The notes under the pieces: generated by a model
The model's database searches: none
Told to the model about the DNA's origin: nothing
What the model saw: the letters and a program-made list of their open reading frames with translations, nothing else
NCBI GenBank assembly: GCA_012735535.1
Contig: JAAYHC010000007.1
Span: 1-39,663, forward strand
Length of the DNA stretch: 39,663 nucleotides
Origin: Bacillota bacterium
Lineage (GTDB): Bacteria; Bacillota; UBA5301
Direction: 5' to 3'
Made by a program: the position numbers and the translations under genes
Part shown: positions 2,211-12,962 of the stretch, one piece after another
How the letters are laid out: every line of letters begins with the position of its first letter
Position numbering within the stretch: position 1 is the first letter of the stretch

Positions 2211-2831
2211 CTATTTCATCCTTCTTTCAGTTAACACCCGCCAAAGATCGTCATTGCCGACCTGACCGGCCTCGAGCAAGACGAGCAGGTGATATAACAA
2301 ATCGGCGGACTCCTGAGCCAACTCTTGCGGATCGCGGTTCTTGGCGGCGATGATCACCTCTGCCGCTTCTTCCCCGATCTTTTTACAGATTTTATCGAGT
2401 CCCTTGGCGAAGAGATAAGTTGTATACGATCCCTCAACCGGGTTCTGCCTGCGCTCGGCGATCACCTCTCTGAGCTGATCCAAGATCGCCGCCCGCGCCG
2501 GCTGCCCTTGCCCGGAGAGCTGTCGGGTAAAGCAGCTCCAACTGCCCTGGTGACAGGCCCCGCTACCGTGTTGCACGACCTGGATGAGCAGGGTGTCGCG
2601 ATCACAGTCGGTCGTGATCGCAACGACCTCCTGAAAGTTACCGGAAGTGGCGCCTTTATGCCACAACTCCCGGCGGCTCCGGCTGTAGAACCATGTCTGC
2701 CCGGTCTCCAGGGTTTTGGCCAGCGACTCCTGGTTCATGTATGCCAGCATCAGCACCTCACCTGTCCGGACATCCTGCACAATGGCCGGAATCAAACCAT
2801 CGACAAATTTGAGCTCCGTTAGATCAAGCAT
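2211..2831 (-). CDS. hisIE: HisIE, phosphoribosyl-AMP cyclohydrolase / phosphoribosyl-ATP pyrophosphatase
   Basis: This bifunctional cytoplasmic enzyme performs steps 2 and 3 of histidine synthesis. The N-terminal HisI part has [34 protein letters not shown] and the metal-binding CDRDTLL...[11 protein letters not shown] cysteines and histidine. The C-terminal HisE part, from about residue 115, has [16 protein letters not shown] followed by [13 protein letters not shown] and the [12 protein letters not shown] helix. The length of 206 residues is usual for the fusion. It is the last gene of the his operon, four bases after hisF, with GGCGGAG as ribosome-binding site. After the TAG stop the same frame stays open for 46 codons up to a second TAG; see the findings. 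Confidence 0.97.
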
Positions 2832-2835
2832 CGGT

Positions 2836-3612
2836 CTATTTCTCCGCCTCCACCGGCCGCACCGGAATTCCGGCCGCCGCCAGATATTCTTTGGCCTCGG
2901 CGATGGTCACCTCACGGAAGTGAAAAAGTGATGCCGCCAAGACCGCATCAACCTGTCCAAGCAGAAAGGCATCCTTAAAATGGGCGAGCTCCCCCGCGCC
3001 GCCCGAAGCAATCACGGGGATCCCGACCTGGCCGGCCACAGCTCGGTTCAGCTCATTGTCATAACCGTTCTTGGTCCCGTCCCGATCCATACTGGTCAAG
3101 AGGATCTCACCAGCCCCAAGCTTTTCAACTTGCTTGGCCCAGTCAATCGCATCCAAGCCGGTGGCAACGCGGCCACCATTGATGACAACCTCCCAGCCGG
3201 CACCGCCCGGACGCTCCTTAACATCGATGGCCACAACGATCCGCTCACCGCCGAACTCAGCCGCGCTTGCAGCAATCAAGTCCGGCTCCTTGACCGCCGC
3301 GGTGTTGATCGATACTTTGGCCGCTCCGGCCTGGAGGACAGCCCGCATATCATCGAGTGAGGCGATTCCCCCGCCGACCGTCAAGGGAATGGTGATCTGC
3401 TCGGCCGTGCGTCGCACCAAATCGATCAAGGTCTTGCGTTTCTCATTCGTGGCGGTAATATCGAGAAAGACCAGTTCATCCGCGCCAGCCCGGTCATACC
3501 AGGCAGCAAGCTCCACCGGATCGCCGGCATCACGCAGACCCTCAAAATTGACCCCTTTAACCACCCGACCATCTTTGACGTCCAGACATGGAATAATGCG
3601 TTTAAACCGCAT
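2836..3612 (-). CDS. hisF: HisF, imidazole glycerol phosphate synthase cyclase subunit (operon copy)
   Basis: The (beta-alpha)8-barrel cyclase subunit converts PRFAR plus ammonia to imidazole glycerol phosphate and AICAR. The catalytic aspartates are seen in [16 protein letters not shown] (Asp11 type) and VVAIDVK (Asp130 type), and the phosphate loops VGGGI and ASGGAG are intact. The ATG overlaps the hisA stop by one base (TGATG), with GGAGGT eight to nine bases upstream; a GTG one codon earlier is less likely. Its normal partner HisH is not encoded beside it: hisB runs straight into hisA. The only hisH in the window is about 8 kb away beside a second HisF, which is roughly half identical by eye. 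Confidence 0.96.
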
Positions 3613-4346
3613 CACTTGCCACCTCCAAATTGCTTCACTGCGTGAGCCAGGTCGATTGCCCCGGTATACAAGGCTTTACCGATGATTGCGCCGACAATCC
3701 GCGGATTATCGGCCGCCTCCGCGGCAATTGCCTCGAGGTCACCGTAAGTTGAAACTCCGCCGGAAACAATCACGTTCAGCCCGGTTTTCGCGCTGAGTTC
3801 CACCGAGGCAGCAAGGTTGGGGCCGGAGAGCATTCCATCTCTGGAGATATCGGTAAAGATGACGGTTTCCACCCCGCACTCCTTCACCACGCGGCCAAGT
3901 TCAGCCGGGCTCGTCGCTACCGTCTCCAGCCACCCTTGAACAGCCACTCGGCCGTCGCGGGCATCAATACCGACCAGGATCGCCTCTCCGAAGCGATAAA
4001 CCGCCTGCTCGACCAGGTCCGGGTTGGTATAAGCGGCACTGCCGATAATCGCATAATCGGCACCGGCTGCCAAGATCTCGTCGATATCGGCCAGCGAGCG
4101 CAGTCCCCCGCCGACCTCGATTGCAATCTCCAGCTCCGCCGCGATCCGTTTAATCACTCCCCGATTGTCGCCACTCCCACGGGCAGCATCCAAATCGACC
4201 AGGTGCAGGCGTGTGCTCCCCTGCGCCGCCCAGTGATGGGCCATCTCCAACGGGTCCTCTCCATAGATCGTTTCTTGGGCGAAGTCGCCCTGGCGTAGGC
4301 GCACGCACCGTCCATTAACCAGATCAATTGCCGGAATGATCAGCAT
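3612..4346 (-). CDS. hisA: HisA, ProFAR isomerase
   Basis: HisA opens the ribose ring of ProFAR by an Amadori rearrangement to give PRFAR, the substrate of HisF/HisH. The barrel begins [15 protein letters not shown] with the catalytic Asp8. The second catalytic Asp is in [15 protein letters not shown], and the phosphate-binding VGGGLR and VSGGVS loops are present. The length (244 residues) is typical. A 28-base gap separates it from hisB, the position where hisH stands in many operons, and there is no room for a gene there. GAGGAG lies nine bases before the ATG. Confidence 0.96.
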
Positions 4347-4374
4347 TGTTTACCGCTCCTCAGTAAAAATAGCC

Positions 4375-4968
4375 TCACGCCAACACCCCTTTGGTAGATG
4401 GAACCCCGCTCATCCGCGGATCAAACTCGACCGCCATCCGCAATGCGCGGCCCAGCGCCTTGAAGATCGCTTCGATCATATGGTGGCTGTTCGCCCCGTA
4501 GACTTCGACGTGCAGCGTAATGCCGGCCGCCGTGCAGAAGGCTTGCAAAAACTCCTTGACCAGACAGGTGTCGAACCAACCCACCCGTTCTTGGGGAAAC
4601 TCGGCCTTGAGCACCAGATATGGCCGGCCGCTCAAGTCGAGGGCTACCCTGGCCAAGGCTTCATCCATTGGCAAATCACAGCTCCCATAGCGCCTGATCC
4701 CCACTTTATCGCCTAGCGCTTCCTTGAAGGCCTGGCCGAGGGTAATCCCGACATCTTCAACGGTATGGTGGCCGTCAACCTCCAAATCGCCCTGGGCTCG
4801 GATAACCAGACTAAAGAGCCCATGTTTACCGATTTGCTCGAGCAAGTGGTCAAAAAATCCGATCGCCGTTTCGATCTGTGCCGGTCCGGACTCATCGAGG
4901 TTTAACTGAACCTCAATCGCCGTTTCGCCGGTCTCCCGTTGAACATGCGCAGTTCGCGGTGTCTGCAT
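4375..4968 (-). CDS. hisB: HisB, imidazoleglycerol-phosphate dehydratase (monofunctional)
   Basis: The enzyme dehydrates imidazole glycerol phosphate to imidazole acetol phosphate and needs two Mn ions. The duplicated metal motifs are clear: DGHHTVEDVGITLG in the first half and ANSHHMIEAIFKALGRAL in the second, with FFDHLLEQ near the N-terminus. There is no fused histidinol phosphatase domain. Three consecutive ATG codons lie at the start. The AAGGAGG site inside the end of hisD is 1, 4 and 7 bases from them, so the third ATG is chosen here; the first would overlap hisD by four bases. Confidence 0.95.
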   Translation of the reverse strand: MQTPRTAHVQRETGETAIEVQLNLDESGPAQIETAIGFFDHLLEQIGKHGLFSLVIRAQGDLEVDGHHTVEDVGITLGQAFKEALGDKVGIRRYGSCDLPMDEALARVALDLSGRPYLVLKAEFPQERVGWFDTCLVKEFLQAFCTAAGITLHVEVYGANSHHMIEAIFKALGRALRMAVEFDPRMSGVPSTKGVLA

Positions 4969-4970
4969 CA

Positions 4971-6287
4971 TCATTCCTCCTTCTGCAGGCGAAGGCGCAC
5001 CGCATTGGCATGGGCGGTGAAACCTTCGATCTCAGCTAAGGTTAAAACACTATCAGCTATCTTGCCAAGCGCCTCATAATCATAGCTGGAGACGCTGACC
5101 CGTTTGAGGAAATCATCAACACCGAGACCCGAAGCGAAGCGGGCGGTGCCGTGGGTAGGCAAAACATGATTGGTGCCGGAGGCATAATCACCTAATGGCT
5201 CCGGGGTATAGCCGCCGAGAAAGATCGTGCCGGCCGACCGAACGAGCGGCAGGTACCGCTCCGGTTCGCCGAGATACAGCTCCAGATGTTCGGGGGCCAG
5301 TATATTCACTAGGGCAATCGCATCCTCGACGGAATCAACCAGGATGCAGCGCCCCCACCTGGACAGGGCGGTAGCAGCTGTCTCACTCCGGGGCAACCGA
5401 GCCAGTTGCTTGGCCAACTCCACCTCTACCGCCTGAGCCAAGCTCGGGCTGGTGGTAAATAAAAAGGCGCCGGCCTCCGGATCGTGCTCGGCCTGGGAGA
5501 GCAGATCCGCAGCCACAAAAGCCGGGTCAGCCTCGGCATCGGCAACCACCGCAATCTCCGACGGTCCGGCGAGCATATCGATGCCGACATCCCCATAAAC
5601 CAGCTTTTTCGCTAAAGTCACATAGATATTGCCCGGACCGCAGATCTTATCCACCCGGCGAATCGTCTCGGTCCCGTAGGCCAAAGCAGCGATGGCTTGG
5701 GCGCCGCCGACCTTGTAAATCTCGGTTACGCCCAAGAGCTTGGCCACCGCCAAAACATGGGGATTAACCACCCCACCCGGCCCTGCCGGCGTGACCAGGC
5801 AAATCTCCCTGACCCCGGCCACTTGCGGTGGAATCACATTCATCAGTACCGTAGACGGATAGGGGGCCCGCCCCCCGGGCACATAGACGCCTACTCGGTC
5901 GAGGGGGATATAGCGGCGTCCTAGCCGCGCCCCGGTCTCTTCGTCTATATAAGACCAGTCCTGCGGCTTTTGTTTCAAATGGTACCGCTCAATCCGCCGT
6001 GCAGCGACACGGGCCGCCGCCAGGAATTCCCTGCTGACCTGCTCATAGGCCGTCTCGATTTCCTCCGGGCTTACCCGTAAGGCCTCGGGGGTCAGTTCTA
6101 CCCCGTCAAAACGAGCGGTTAACTCACAGAGAGCACGATCGCCATCTCGGCGCACCTGCCGGATGATCTCCCGGACCGCGGCTTCCTTGGCCTGGTCGAA
6201 CTCGAGTCCCCGGTCCAGCAGGGACCGGTCAAACGCGGCCAGATCACCGTCAAAACGCACTACCTGCCAACCGACCTGATAACTCAT
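4971..6287 (-). CDS. hisD: HisD, histidinol dehydrogenase
   Basis: HisD carries out the last two oxidations of histidine synthesis (L-histidinol to L-histidine, NAD and zinc dependent). The diagnostic GPGNIYVTLAKKLVYG and DMLAGPSE motifs are present, as are the zinc and catalytic residues in DLLSQAEHDPEA, APEHLEL and GTNHVLPT. It has 438 residues, a typical length. The ATG overlaps the hisG stop as ATGA, so the two genes are translationally coupled. hisC, which normally provides the aminotransferase upstream of this step, is not in the operon. Confidence 0.97.
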   Translation of the reverse strand: MSYQVGWQVVRFDGDLAAFDRSLLDRGLEFDQAKEAAVREIIRQVRRDGDRALCELTARFDGVELTPEALRVSPEEIETAYEQVSREFLAAARVAARRIERYHLKQKPQDWSYIDEETGARLGRRYIPLDRVGVYVPGGRAPYPSTVLMNVIPPQVAGVREICLVTPAGPGGVVNPHVLAVAKLLGVTEIYKVGGAQAIAALAYGTETIRRVDKICGPGNIYVTLAKKLVYGDVGIDMLAGPSEIAVVADAEADPAFVAADLLSQAEHDPEAGAFLFTTSPSLAQAVEVELAKQLARLPRSETAATALSRWGRCILVDSVEDAIALVNILAPEHLELYLGEPERYLPLVRSAGTIFLGGYTPEPLGDYASGTNHVLPTHGTARFASGLGVDDFLKRVSVSSYDYEALGKIADSVLTLAEIEGFTAHANAVRLRLQKEE

Positions 6288-6934
6288 CTTTTGGAAACCT
6301 CCACTGCCTGAAGTCCCCGCACCAACTCTTGGATCAACGGATAGCGAACCTTATAGCTGATCCGGTTGCAGATCAAGCGGGCACTCACCGACATGATCTC
6401 TTCAACAATCCGCAGTTGATTCTGGGCTAAAGTTCTTCCCGTCTCCGTAATATCGACAATCGCCGAGGCGAGTCCGGCTTTGGGAGCCAACTCGATACTG
6501 CCATTGAGTTTCACGATATCTACTTGAATCCCATGGGAGGAAAAGTATTCCTGCGCAAGGCGGGGAAATTTGGTCGCAACGCGCGAGCCCGGGATCAGAT
6601 CGGTGGCCTTGCGAATCGGAGAATCCTCGGGTACCGCCATAATCAAGCGACACCGGCCGACCCCCAAATCATAAAGCTCACAGAGTTCCCGCCGCGCCTC
6701 CAAAAGGACATCCTTACCCGCCACCCCCAAATCGGCGGCGCCGTACTCAACATATATCGGCACATCTGCCGGCTTGACCAGCAACAACTCCCAGCGGCCG
6801 TCCGCAGTTTTAACGGTCAAGCGGCGCTCGAGGTCAACCTCCGGTCCGAGGTCGAAAAGACCGGCCCGGGAGAATAGCTCAACAAGCGGCGCAAAAAGCC
6901 GCCCCTTCGGCATCGCAATCGTAACTGGACGCAT
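6284..6934 (-). CDS. hisG: HisG, ATP phosphoribosyltransferase catalytic subunit (short form)
   Basis: This is the first committed enzyme of histidine synthesis (ATP plus PRPP to phosphoribosyl-ATP). At 216 residues it is the short HisG form, which lacks the C-terminal regulatory domain and depends on HisZ, encoded just upstream. The PRPP-binding segment AIVDITETGRTLAQN and the N-terminal MPKGRLFAPLVELFSRAG are characteristic. An AGAGGT site lies before the ATG. The 85 bases between hisZ and hisG hold a TTGACA promoter and a long inverted repeat, so hisG and downstream genes may have their own regulated transcript. Confidence 0.96.
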   Translation of the reverse strand: MRPVTIAMPKGRLFAPLVELFSRAGLFDLGPEVDLERRLTVKTADGRWELLLVKPADVPIYVEYGAADLGVAGKDVLLEARRELCELYDLGVGRCRLIMAVPEDSPIRKATDLIPGSRVATKFPRLAQEYFSSHGIQVDIVKLNGSIELAPKAGLASAIVDITETGRTLAQNQLRIVEEIMSVSARLICNRISYKVRYPLIQELVRGLQAVEVSKR

Positions 6935-6948
6935 GGCAAACCTCTTTC

Positions 6949-6978
6949 TTAATTTAACAAGCTAAAGTGTTAAATTAA
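6949..6978. promoter_or_regulatory. 30-bp inverted repeat before hisG, probable operator
   Basis: Perfect 11-bp arms TTAATTTAACA and TGTTAAATTAA flank an 8-bp spacer. The repeat lies just downstream of the -10 box of the hisG promoter and ends 14 bases before the hisG ATG, where a bound repressor would block transcription. The YerC (TrpR-superfamily) protein encoded at the head of the operon is the natural candidate to bind it, by inference only. The arms are AT-rich and not followed by a T run, so a terminator is unlikely. Confidence 0.6.
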
Positions 6979-6990
6979 TAAATTACACTT

Positions 6991-7019
6991 ATGCTACCAC
7001 AGGAATTGCCTGCTGTCAA
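6991..7019 (-). promoter_or_regulatory. Internal promoter before hisG
   Basis: A consensus TTGACA -35 box starts immediately after the hisZ stop codon. A TAGCAT -10 box (4 of 6) follows at 17-bp spacing. The start point would fall just before the inverted repeat. Confidence 0.6.
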
Positions 7020-8249
7020 TCAGTTTTTTGCTTTGAGGTACGCGGAAACTTCAGCGGGCGAAGCGAAAACGACGACCCGGTCACCATCGGTTAACCGGAA
7101 CTCGTTTGGGGCGAGAACCTCCACGTGCAGGGCAGCGGACTGCGCTTCGTTAGCTAACTGCCAAATCGTCGGAATCTGCTGACCGCGGAGCAGCTCGGCC
7201 AGCCGATGGGCCTCCCCCCGCAATCCGGAAGCATAACTGAGATAAACGGGGACGCGGCCGGCATCAGGCCACCGCACCAGCTCCAACAGGCGCTCCAAGC
7301 CAAAGGCAAACCCGGTCGCCGGCCGATCGGGGCCGAAGCGGCCGATTAAGCGATCATACCGACCGCCGGTGCAGACGGTATAGCCTAATTCGGCCACATA
7401 GCCTTCGAAGATCACGCCGGTATAATAATCGAGGTCTTTGAGCATGGCCAAATCCAACTGGACCGAGCGCAAGACCTCCGGATTAAGCAGATCGCAGACC
7501 TGCTCTAAACGGTCTAAAGCCGCATGGGCCTGTTTGTTCCGGGTTAACTCTCTTGCTTCGGCGATCACCTCAACTCCGCCGCGCAACCGGCTGATGCTGA
7601 TGAGTTGCTGCTTAGCGTGGTCCGGAATCGCAGCTTGGGCCAGGATCTCTCCGAACGCAACAAAATCCTTATTGAGCAAGGCCAAGCGGACTGCGCGTTG
7701 CTCTTTGGCCGACAATCCGGAGTCGGCCAAGACCCCCTGGATAAAGCTGACCTCACCCAGATCAAGGCGGTAATCAGGAATCTCCAAGGCGGAAAAAACC
7801 TCAGCCGCCAGTTGAATAACCTCGGCATCAGCTTCCGGTCGGGCGGAACCGATCAGTTCCACCCCGGCTTGGTGAAACTCCCGTTCACGTCCCATACCTG
7901 GATCGACATAGCGAAAAATGTTAGTCAAGTAAGCCAAACGGAGAATTGAGTCGGATTCGGCAAAGCGCGTAGCGGCCAACCGTGCAATCGGGGTCGTCGC
8001 ATCGGAACGCAGGCCGAGGGTGTGCCCCTCCCGGTCGAAAAAGCGAAAGATCACCTCGTCGGATTCGGGGCCGGTGCCCTGCCGTAAGACATCAATATGC
8101 TCAAAAGTCGGGGTGATGACCTCAGCATAGCCCCACAGCTGAAAAGTCGTCCTGATTCGCTCCTCGATCGCTCTAATCACCCGGGTCTCCTGCGGCAGAT
8201 AATCTTTGGTGCCTCGGGGACGTTGTAAACGCAAGTCTGCTTTAATCAA
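7020..8249 (-). CDS. hisZ: HisZ, ATP phosphoribosyltransferase regulatory subunit
   Basis: HisZ is a catalytically dead relative of histidyl-tRNA synthetase that forms a hetero-octamer with short HisG and gives histidine feedback control. The start (LQRPRGTKDYLPQE) and the class II synthetase-like core are recognisable. Motif 3-like GFAFGLERLLEL and the HisS-like CTGGRYDRLIGRFG are retained, and a degenerate anticodon-binding-like C-terminal domain completes 409 residues. Adjacency to a short HisG supports HisZ over HisS. The chosen TTG start has AGGAGA eight bases upstream and overlaps yerC by eight bases. A longer reading frame would run far into yerC and is rejected. Confidence 0.92.
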   Translation of the reverse strand: MIKADLRLQRPRGTKDYLPQETRVIRAIEERIRTTFQLWGYAEVITPTFEHIDVLRQGTGPESDEVIFRFFDREGHTLGLRSDATTPIARLAATRFAESDSILRLAYLTNIFRYVDPGMGREREFHQAGVELIGSARPEADAEVIQLAAEVFSALEIPDYRLDLGEVSFIQGVLADSGLSAKEQRAVRLALLNKDFVAFGEILAQAAIPDHAKQQLISISRLRGGVEVIAEARELTRNKQAHAALDRLEQVCDLLNPEVLRSVQLDLAMLKDLDYYTGVIFEGYVAELGYTVCTGGRYDRLIGRFGPDRPATGFAFGLERLLELVRWPDAGRVPVYLSYASGLRGEAHRLAELLRGQQIPTIWQLANEAQSAALHVEVLAPNEFRLTDGDRVVVFASPAEVSAYLKAKN

Positions 8250-8553
8250 GTTTGATCTCTCCTGCCTTGGCGAGCTTCTCCAAAACGAGGGTATAACCAT
8301 CAGCGCCATAATTGAGACAACGTTTGACCCGGCTGACCGTAGCCGTACTAGCCCCGGTCTCATCGACAATTTCCTGGTATTTGCGGCCTTGCTGAAGCAT
8401 GATCGCGACCTTCAGCCGCTGGCTCATCGCTTCGAGCTCGGAGACGGTACAAACATCTTCAAAGAACCGGTAGCACTCAGCCAAATCTTCTAAAGACAAG
8501 ATGGCTTTAAAAAACAGGTCGAGCTCGTCACTTTTTAGTTTATCAAGAGCCAC
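8242..8553 (-). CDS. yerC: YerC/YecD family TrpR-related DNA-binding protein, likely his regulator
   Basis: This small helical protein (103 residues) of the TrpR superfamily begins with a GTG codon preceded by AGAGGTG. The helix-turn-helix is in the second half: KYQEIVDETGASTATVSRVKRCL, with a preceding SELEAMSQRLKVAIML helix typical of the YerC/YecD family. It is the first gene of the his operon and overlaps hisZ by eight bases. Comparative-genomic work on Gram-positive bacteria has, to my recollection, linked YerC-type proteins with histidine control (HisR); that and the operon position suggest a histidine-responsive repressor. Direct evidence for the ligand is not visible in the sequence. 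Confidence 0.85.
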   Translation of the reverse strand: MALDKLKSDELDLFFKAILSLEDLAECYRFFEDVCTVSELEAMSQRLKVAIMLQQGRKYQEIVDETGASTATVSRVKRCLNYGADGYTLVLEKLAKAGEIKLD

Positions 8554-8583: not shown

Positions 8584-8595
8584 CTTTTACCTATT

Positions 8596-8624
8596 ACCAT
8601 ACTAAAAAAAGTTAGGAATAGCAA
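8596..8624 (-). promoter_or_regulatory. Candidate promoter of the yerC-his operon
   Basis: TTGCTA and TATGGT are separated by 17 bases on the minus strand, each matching 4 of 6 consensus bases. The location just upstream of the LexA-like box is right for operon control. This is a moderate match. Confidence 0.4.
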
Positions 8625-8643
8625 GCGAAAGAATAAAACGAAA

Positions 8644-8678
8644 GCAGCCGCTCCAAGTTAGCGTCTTGGAACGGCTGC
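8644..8678 (-). terminator. Terminator after the purine permease gene
   Basis: The arms GCAGCCG-C-TCCAAG and CTTGGA-A-CGGCTGC form a 14-position stem with one mismatch and a seven-base loop. A T-rich tract follows on the minus strand. It separates the permease gene from the yerC-his operon. Confidence 0.7.
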
Positions 8679-8707
8679 CATATCACGTTATCGCAATCTC
8701 CGGAATC

Positions 8708-11542: not shown

Positions 11543-11575
11543 GTTGTCATTTTGCTACGCAGGGAGATGTCTGGA

Positions 11576-12187
11576 ATGATTGCTGTTGTTGATTACGGTG
11601 TCGGCAATTTGTTTTCGCTACTCTCAAGTCTCCGCTTTTTGGGATCGGCTTGCCTGGTGACCAAGCAAAAGGAAGATCTGGTCCGCGCTGAACGAATCAT
11701 CCTGCCCGGTGTCGGCGCTTTCGGTGATGCGATGGACAAGCTCAACGACGCTGGTCTGACCGACACCATTCGAGAGTTGGCCCAAGTCAAACCGCTCTTG
11801 GGTATCTGTTTGGGAATGCAGCTTTTGTTTGAAAGAAGCTTTGAACACGGCGAACATGAGGGTTTGGGGCTGATTCCCGGCTCAGTCGAGCCCCTGGCGG
11901 CTGATCTCGAGCAACCCCTGAAAGTTCCGCACATGGGCTGGAATAGGCTCACCATCGTGAGAGATGATCCGATCTTTAAATACTTCACTGATGGTGACTG
12001 GGTCTACTATGTTCACAGTTATTACGCCAAGAACTGCGCCGGAAACACCCTGGGTGTATCCGACTATGGTGTCACGGTTACCGGGCTGGTCCGCTCCGCC
12101 TCCGGTCTAATCTACGGTATGCAGTTTCACCCGGAAAAAAGCGGCCGTGCGGGACTTGGCCTTTTAAAAGCATTCTCTGAAATCTAA
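11576..12187 (+). CDS. hisH: HisH, glutamine amidotransferase subunit of IGP synthase
   Basis: HisH hydrolyses glutamine and passes ammonia to the HisF barrel. The class I glutaminase triad is visible: the nucleophile near residue 78 in LLGICLGMQLLFE, and the His and Glu in MQFHPEKS. The N-terminus IAVVDYGVGNLFSL is typical HisH. The ATG at 11576 follows GGGAG by nine bases, giving 203 residues; a TTG eight codons earlier is possible. It lies 33 bases after the methyltransferase and 19 before a second hisF. Because the main his operon has no hisH, this may be the glutaminase for histidine synthesis in the cell. It may instead serve only the HisF beside it. Confidence 0.93.
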   Translation: MIAVVDYGVGNLFSLLSSLRFLGSACLVTKQKEDLVRAERIILPGVGAFGDAMDKLNDAGLTDTIRELAQVKPLLGICLGMQLLFERSFEHGEHEGLGLIPGSVEPLAADLEQPLKVPHMGWNRLTIVRDDPIFKYFTDGDWVYYVHSYYAKNCAGNTLGVSDYGVTVTGLVRSASGLIYGMQFHPEKSGRAGLGLLKAFSEI

Positions 12188-12206
12188 CTGCTCCGGAGGC
12201 TCTGGT

Positions 12207-12962
12207 ATGATTAGTAAGCGTATTATCCCCTGTCTGGATGTCACCAACGGCCGAGTAGTAAAAGGCGTCAACTTTCAGGATATCCACGATCTGGCCGACC
12301 CGGTAGAACTGGCGCGCTACTATTATGAAACCGGCGCGGATGAACTTGTCTTTTACGATATTACCGCCAGCTACGAAGGGCGGAAACTCTTTACCGATCT
12401 TTTGCGCCGCGTGGCCGCCCAGATTTTCATCCCTCTGACCGTCGGCGGCGGCATCAACTCACTCCACGACTTCGACACCGTCTTGAAATCCGGAGCGGAC
12501 AAAGTCAGCATCAATAGCGGAGCCATCAAGGATCCTTCGTTGATTAGTGCTGCGGCTAAGCGTTACGGCAGCCAATGCGTTGTTCTCAGTATGGACGTTA
12601 AACGGGTCAACGGAGAGTTTCGCGTTTTTGCCAACGGCGGCAGAATCGATACCGGCCTGGATGCTCGCGAGTGGGCCAAACGCGGCGAAGATCTGGGAGC
12701 CGGCGAGATAGTGCTCAACTCGATAGATACCGACGGTGTCCGCCAAGGCTTTGATCTGCCGCTACTTTGCGCGATCGGTGAAATCGTTTCCGTGCCGCTG
12801 ATTGCCAGCGGAGGGGCCGGAAAAATGGCGGATTTTTGGGAGCTGTTTCAATACGACCGGGTTGATGCCGGCCTGGCGGCCAGCGTCTTTCATACCAAAC
12901 AGATCGATATCGGAGAGCTGAAAAAGTATCTGCGGGAGCGCGGGGTCAACGTGCGCTTGTAA
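12207..12962 (+). CDS. hisF: Second HisF, imidazole glycerol phosphate synthase cyclase subunit
   Basis: This is a full-length HisF of 251 residues. The catalytic Asp is retained in [19 protein letters not shown] and in VLSMDVK. The gate residues near the ammonia channel (Arg5, the Glu of ELVFYDI, the Lys of ADKVSIN and the Glu of GAGEIVLNS) are also present. It is therefore a true cyclase by sequence, not one of the diverged HisF-like proteins of surface-sugar loci, in which the CLDV motif is altered. It is clearly distinct from the operon copy (for example AANSLHDF-type versus ASLDDM segments after VGGGI). It sits next to hisH with a CTCCGGAGG ribosome-binding region. Two HisF proteins and one HisH are thus encoded within 10 kb. 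Confidence 0.93.

Follow-up and report, generated by a model that had tools for sequence, protein, structure and literature searches.

Comparison with related genomes makes it highly probable that the gap between hisZ and hisG in a Bacillota histidine cluster carries an operator for the TrpR-family repressor HisR (YerC), placed at an internal sigma-A-type promoter that would drive hisG-D-B-A-F-IE and be repressed by histidine-bound dimers, probably side by side. The cluster lies in the window, by which we mean the whole 39,663-nucleotide stretch of DNA that was analyzed. A sequence-only reading had pointed to an inverted repeat in this gap, which is very probably one component of the DNA switch that the histidine-sensing repressor would occupy. 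For histidine biosynthesis promoters more widely, we lean toward the view that HisR normally acts on half-sites in tandem, spaced with an 8-bp period, that accommodate two to four dimers and extend toward the -10 box, and that the site at yerC is a single palindrome.

YerC is the protein named HisR by Ashniev et al. in 2022, a histidine-dependent TrpR-family repressor of Firmicutes his genes with the operator cacTTTAnnnnnnTAAAgtg (PMC9413887). In that survey HisR is the commonest his regulator in Firmicutes, and PDB entry 3G1C is described as HisR; the Ruminococcus gnavus protein, the sole orthologue for which binding was shown, binds its hisX site with histidine present (PMC9413887). Since by 2022 HisR already had its name and one orthologue had been assayed in vitro, the idea of a YerC operator is not new, and the regulator, the effector, and the motif core are already known. 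The 8-bp-period arrays are apparently new as HisR operators, and no report of tandem HisR binding was found in the literature searched.

The yerC-his cluster and its internal promoter

All genes of the cluster lie on the minus strand. As the sequence-only reading had it, yerC (8242 to 8553) is a TrpR-superfamily gene: its product matched PF01371 (E = 1.2e-30) and TIGR02531, "YerC/YecD family TrpR-related protein" (E = 5e-41; 139 bits against a cut-off of 42.2), as well as the solved structures 3G1C, 3KOR, and 3FRW (E of about 1e-29). A predicted intrinsic terminator of the upstream gene (8643 to 8679, minus strand) separates that gene from yerC. Next comes hisZ, encoding the ATP-PRT regulatory subunit (7020 to 8369; TIGR00443), whose reading frame is open to 8369 with the true start further in. 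The first gene past the operator is hisG (6284 to 6934; TIGR00070), followed by the reading frames of hisD, hisB, hisA, hisF, and hisIE (2211 to 6287), with hisD, hisF, and hisIE assigned by profile match; for hisA and hisB the names come solely from the translation and the order of the genes. This operon has its own hisF and is without hisH; away from it, at 11552 to 12962 on the plus strand, lie hisH and another hisF, each exceeding its NCBIfam cut-off, and no HisR-like site was found before this separate pair.

Read along the minus strand, the hisZ-hisG gap opens directly 3′ of the hisZ stop codon TGA (7022 to 7020) with the -35 box TTGACA (7019 to 7014). After a spacer of 17 bases comes the -10 box TAGCAT (6991 to 6996), with an extended TGG in front of it, then an A+T-rich leader containing the repeat, the ribosome-binding site AAGAAAGAGG (6941 to 6950), and the hisG ATG at 6934. 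The promoter boxes are thus exactly as first described. A terminator was looked for in the hisZ-hisG interval, and none was found. The -35 box recurs at the matching place in both other genomes of the same family (G001 and G002), which also retain the ribosome-binding site.

The -10 box is closely followed, at 6950 to 6969 on the minus strand, by a canonical 20-bp HisR site, CACTTTAGCTTGTTAAATTA, which begins 35 bp ahead of the hisG start. It matches the published motif (PMC9413887) at 12 of 14 positions and its core at 8 of 8, with the outer bases of one half off consensus (tta for gtg). The conserved element is TTTA-N6-TAAA, centered at 6959.5. Four other sites in the same genome also scored 12/14 and were rejected, all of them being within open reading frames.

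HisR sites in related genomes

Both same-family genomes keep the promoter and the full HisR core (8/8) close before hisG, and in G003, which belongs to a different family, hisG is preceded by a separate TTGACA promoter and by CGCTTTAACGCGATAAAC, with a motif score of 10/14. To place these sites in a wider setting, we surveyed 150 genomes and tabulated 107 that bear yerC (G001 included), 68 of them having hisG downstream of yerC in the same orientation. A site was present in 73 of 99 HisR-bearing genomes (control, 10/99), compared with 2 of 20 genomes without a detected HisR, where it was sought upstream of hisG (control, 1/20). The motif was found conserved before hisG in YerC-bearing relatives; the refuting outcome named in the sequence-only reading, a lack of such conservation, was therefore not observed. 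This, together with the published motif, supports the proposal of a putative YerC operator at the internal promoter.

The promoter geometry recurred as well. A TTG-type -35 box with a -10 box (pair score of at least 9/12), the latter starting 6 to 27 bp upstream, accompanied all 42 full-core sites and 1 of 42 shuffled ones. Because of this, the arrangement that had been taken for that of a repressor operator appears to be general for HisR promoters in these genomes.

Among the 68 linked loci (L131 to L198), the operator was found at either hisZ or hisG but hardly ever at both: with a cut-off of at least 11/14, 22 genomes had a site in the yerC-hisZ interval and 24 had one before hisG (0 and 2, respectively, with the reversed motif as a control), and only 2 genomes had both positions occupied. 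Every one of the 24 hisG sites was located after hisZ. The operator has therefore shifted its position on one or more occasions within the phylum, and the difference between families amounts to a natural experiment on whether HisZ must be repressed together with HisG. At the cut-off used, 24 of the 68 linked genomes had no site before hisZ or hisG; perhaps the motif has drifted in this third or so of them, as is suggested by the divergent palindrome that G006 has upstream of yerC (below), and in line with the 10/14 score of G003.

Two further loci were recorded in the survey. One (L135, G006:C33:22839-24808) has a near-perfect palindrome, TAGTATGTTAGCATGTTAACATACTA, before yerC-hisZ-hisG; it reads TAGTATGTTA-GCATGT-TAACATACTA and is HisR-like, with the core TTA-N6-TAA instead of TTTA-N6-TAAA. 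The other (L046, G090:C24) has a near-consensus HisR palindrome, TACTTTATCACGTTAAAGTG, in three identical copies on a single contig, two of which are separated by about 350 bp, and that genome has no site at its his operon at the cut-off used. Single-palindrome searches of the 150 genomes allowing one mismatch were set aside as too unspecific alone, with many matches outside his loci that lacked an array.

Half-sites recur every 8 bp

The HisR site of the window forms part of a longer array of half-sites with an 8-bp period, TTTATTAA TTTAACAC TTTAGCTT GTTAAATT (6951 to 6982, minus strand). The strict four-unit pattern occurs once in its own genome, at the hisG site, and once in G001, before hisG. 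A typical example from another genome (G101) reads TTTAACGT ATTAGCAC TTTAACGT ATTAAAGAG.

We tested for the array with bases outside those that had selected the sites, taking one site per family from 24 families of a single phylum. Counted from the left half-site already known, the triplet TTA stood at -8, -16, and -24 in 15, 11, and 6 of the 24 families, respectively, and at -32 in 4, whereas any offset that was not a multiple of 8 had it in at most 3. The sum over -8, -16, and -24 was 32, against a mean of 3.1 and a maximum of 12 in 5,000 shuffles, none of which reached 32. An independent set of 14 genomes with yerC unlinked to hisG gave 21 (shuffle mean, 2.3; maximum, 9). The -8 unit was present at 32 of 42 his sites, and its three bases carried 1.34, 0.96, and 1.5 bits of information, a conservation that matches much of the known site. 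No array was found at the sites upstream of yerC (7 families), nor, as judged by eye, at most chance motif matches elsewhere. In about 100 related genomes, then, operators usually appear to be half-sites every 8 bases and not a single 20-base palindrome, which suggests TrpR-like tandem dimers.

Other readings of the repeat and the array

The periodicity could also be read without tandem binding, as a single HisR dimer on the 20-bp palindrome with the extra TTA units reflecting promoter layout and an A+T-rich leader. The array-free sites upstream of yerC indicate that a lone palindrome is possible, the motif given in the published main text is 20 bp only (PMC9413887), and the -16 unit is often contiguous with the -10 box; as a portion of the upstream array adjoins that box, some of the periodicity at -16 and -24 may indeed come from promoter spacing. 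Against this, the -8 TTA, whose conservation is on a par with much of the known site, falls downstream of the -10 box in almost every genome, TTA is scarce at offsets that are not multiples of 8, and the -8 unit was found in 55 of 99 HisR-bearing genomes versus 1 of 20 lacking HisR. We therefore consider the single-dimer reading unlikely.

The inverted repeat as it was originally described, spanning 6949 to 6978 downstream of the promoter, is real: its arms, TTAATTTAACA and TGTTAAATTAA, pair perfectly over 11 bp around an 8-nt spacer (15 nt at 93% when extended), it is a single copy in the 1.94-Mb genome with 3 mismatches allowed, and such arms arose in 1 of 1,000 dinucleotide shuffles of the 85-bp hisZ-hisG gap. 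This rarity speaks for the repeat itself, TTTA-N14-TAAA centered at 6963.5, as the operator. However, its center is 4 bp off that of the HisR site, and in both G001 and G002 its arms fall to 8/11 pairing whereas the HisR core keeps 8/8, so that they are perfect only here among the family's three genomes. The N14 pair is also the known N6 pair plus one 8-bp unit; the right half-site is an inverted copy of the -8 half-site, and this gives rise to the palindrome, making it a by-product of the array. We consider it very unlikely that this palindrome is the operator; the predicted operator stands, with the conserved palindrome offset by 4 bp and part of the array. Still less probable is a function as RNA, be it an attenuator, a T-box, or a hairpin hiding the hisG ribosome-binding site. 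Such a role would suit a repeat that lies in the predicted leader adjoining the ribosome-binding site, and T-boxes or attenuators do control his genes in some Firmicutes. Yet neither a T-box nor a his leader attenuator was found by Rfam match within the window, and conservation tracks the DNA motif and the presence of yerC, with the pairing arms incompletely kept in relatives. An intrinsic terminator was ruled out, as the stem of the repeat is nearly all A+T and is absent from the list of predicted terminators.

A model for the control of yerC-hisZ and hisG

A weaker HisR-like site, TTTTTTTAGTATGGTAATAG (8591 to 8610, minus strand), lies over the yerC promoter, whose -35 box is TTGCTA (8624 to 8619) and -10 box TATGGT (8601 to 8596). 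It has one core mismatch in the window and falls below the score cut-off; G001 and G002 have an equivalent layout with the full core TTTA-N6-TAAA. Mild autoregulation of yerC by HisR is thus likely on comparative grounds. The sequence-only reading had proposed that, if YerC binds here, hisG-D-B-A-F-IE would be controlled separately from hisZ. Such separation is likely only in part, given that the weaker site overlaps the promoter of yerC-hisZ and that no terminator was found between hisZ and hisG. Some control probably extends to hisZ too, though a less tight one than for hisG.

From the promoter and site conservation, the dependence on yerC, and the 8-bp array computed here, we infer binding by the YerC of the window, tandem dimers, and repression, as follows. 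Histidine-bound HisR dimers would occupy the 20-bp site that closely follows the -10 box, with further dimers, most likely, on the neighboring half-sites in 8-bp steps. Jointly they would obstruct RNA polymerase, spanning the DNA roughly from the start site through +35. A drop in histidine would release HisR and let the hisG promoter fire, and yerC-hisZ would be transcribed from its own promoter with the weaker HisR-like site. If the tandem array is indeed the normal operator, a steep, cooperative, histidine-dependent shut-off of the his genes may be expected along with milder autoregulation, as with TrpR tandem binding.

Comparison with known systems

Other his-gene controls in Bacillota, the His T-box and the his attenuators, are RNA-based. 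The closest likeness is to the HisR regulon of Bacillota, with which the present case shares the regulator family, the 20-bp motif core, the his operon as a target, and a hisR gene adjoining the his genes, an arrangement reported for Peptococcaceae among others (PMC9413887). It differs from that regulon in that the operator and promoter are internal to the cluster, lying in the hisZ-hisG gap, and in the 8-bp-period array, the main text of the survey giving only the 20-bp palindrome and no tandem sites (PMC9413887). The HisR operator has so far been modeled as one short palindrome; if the arrays hold, present motif models underestimate the operators, and scoring the 8-bp period would sharpen the specificity of regulon searches.

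The operator of E. coli trpEDCBA, whose sequence we confirmed in 5,391 E. coli genomes, is alike in the fold family of its repressor and in half-sites with an 8-bp repeat (ACTAGTTA ACTAGTAC). TrpR binds its operator as tandem dimers, and HisR, should its arrays be bound in the same manner, would become a second TrpR-family case for studying cooperative tandem binding. The predicted HisR arrays differ from the TrpR operator in that the half-site core is TTTA and not GNACT, the effector is histidine, and the arrays often have three to four units.
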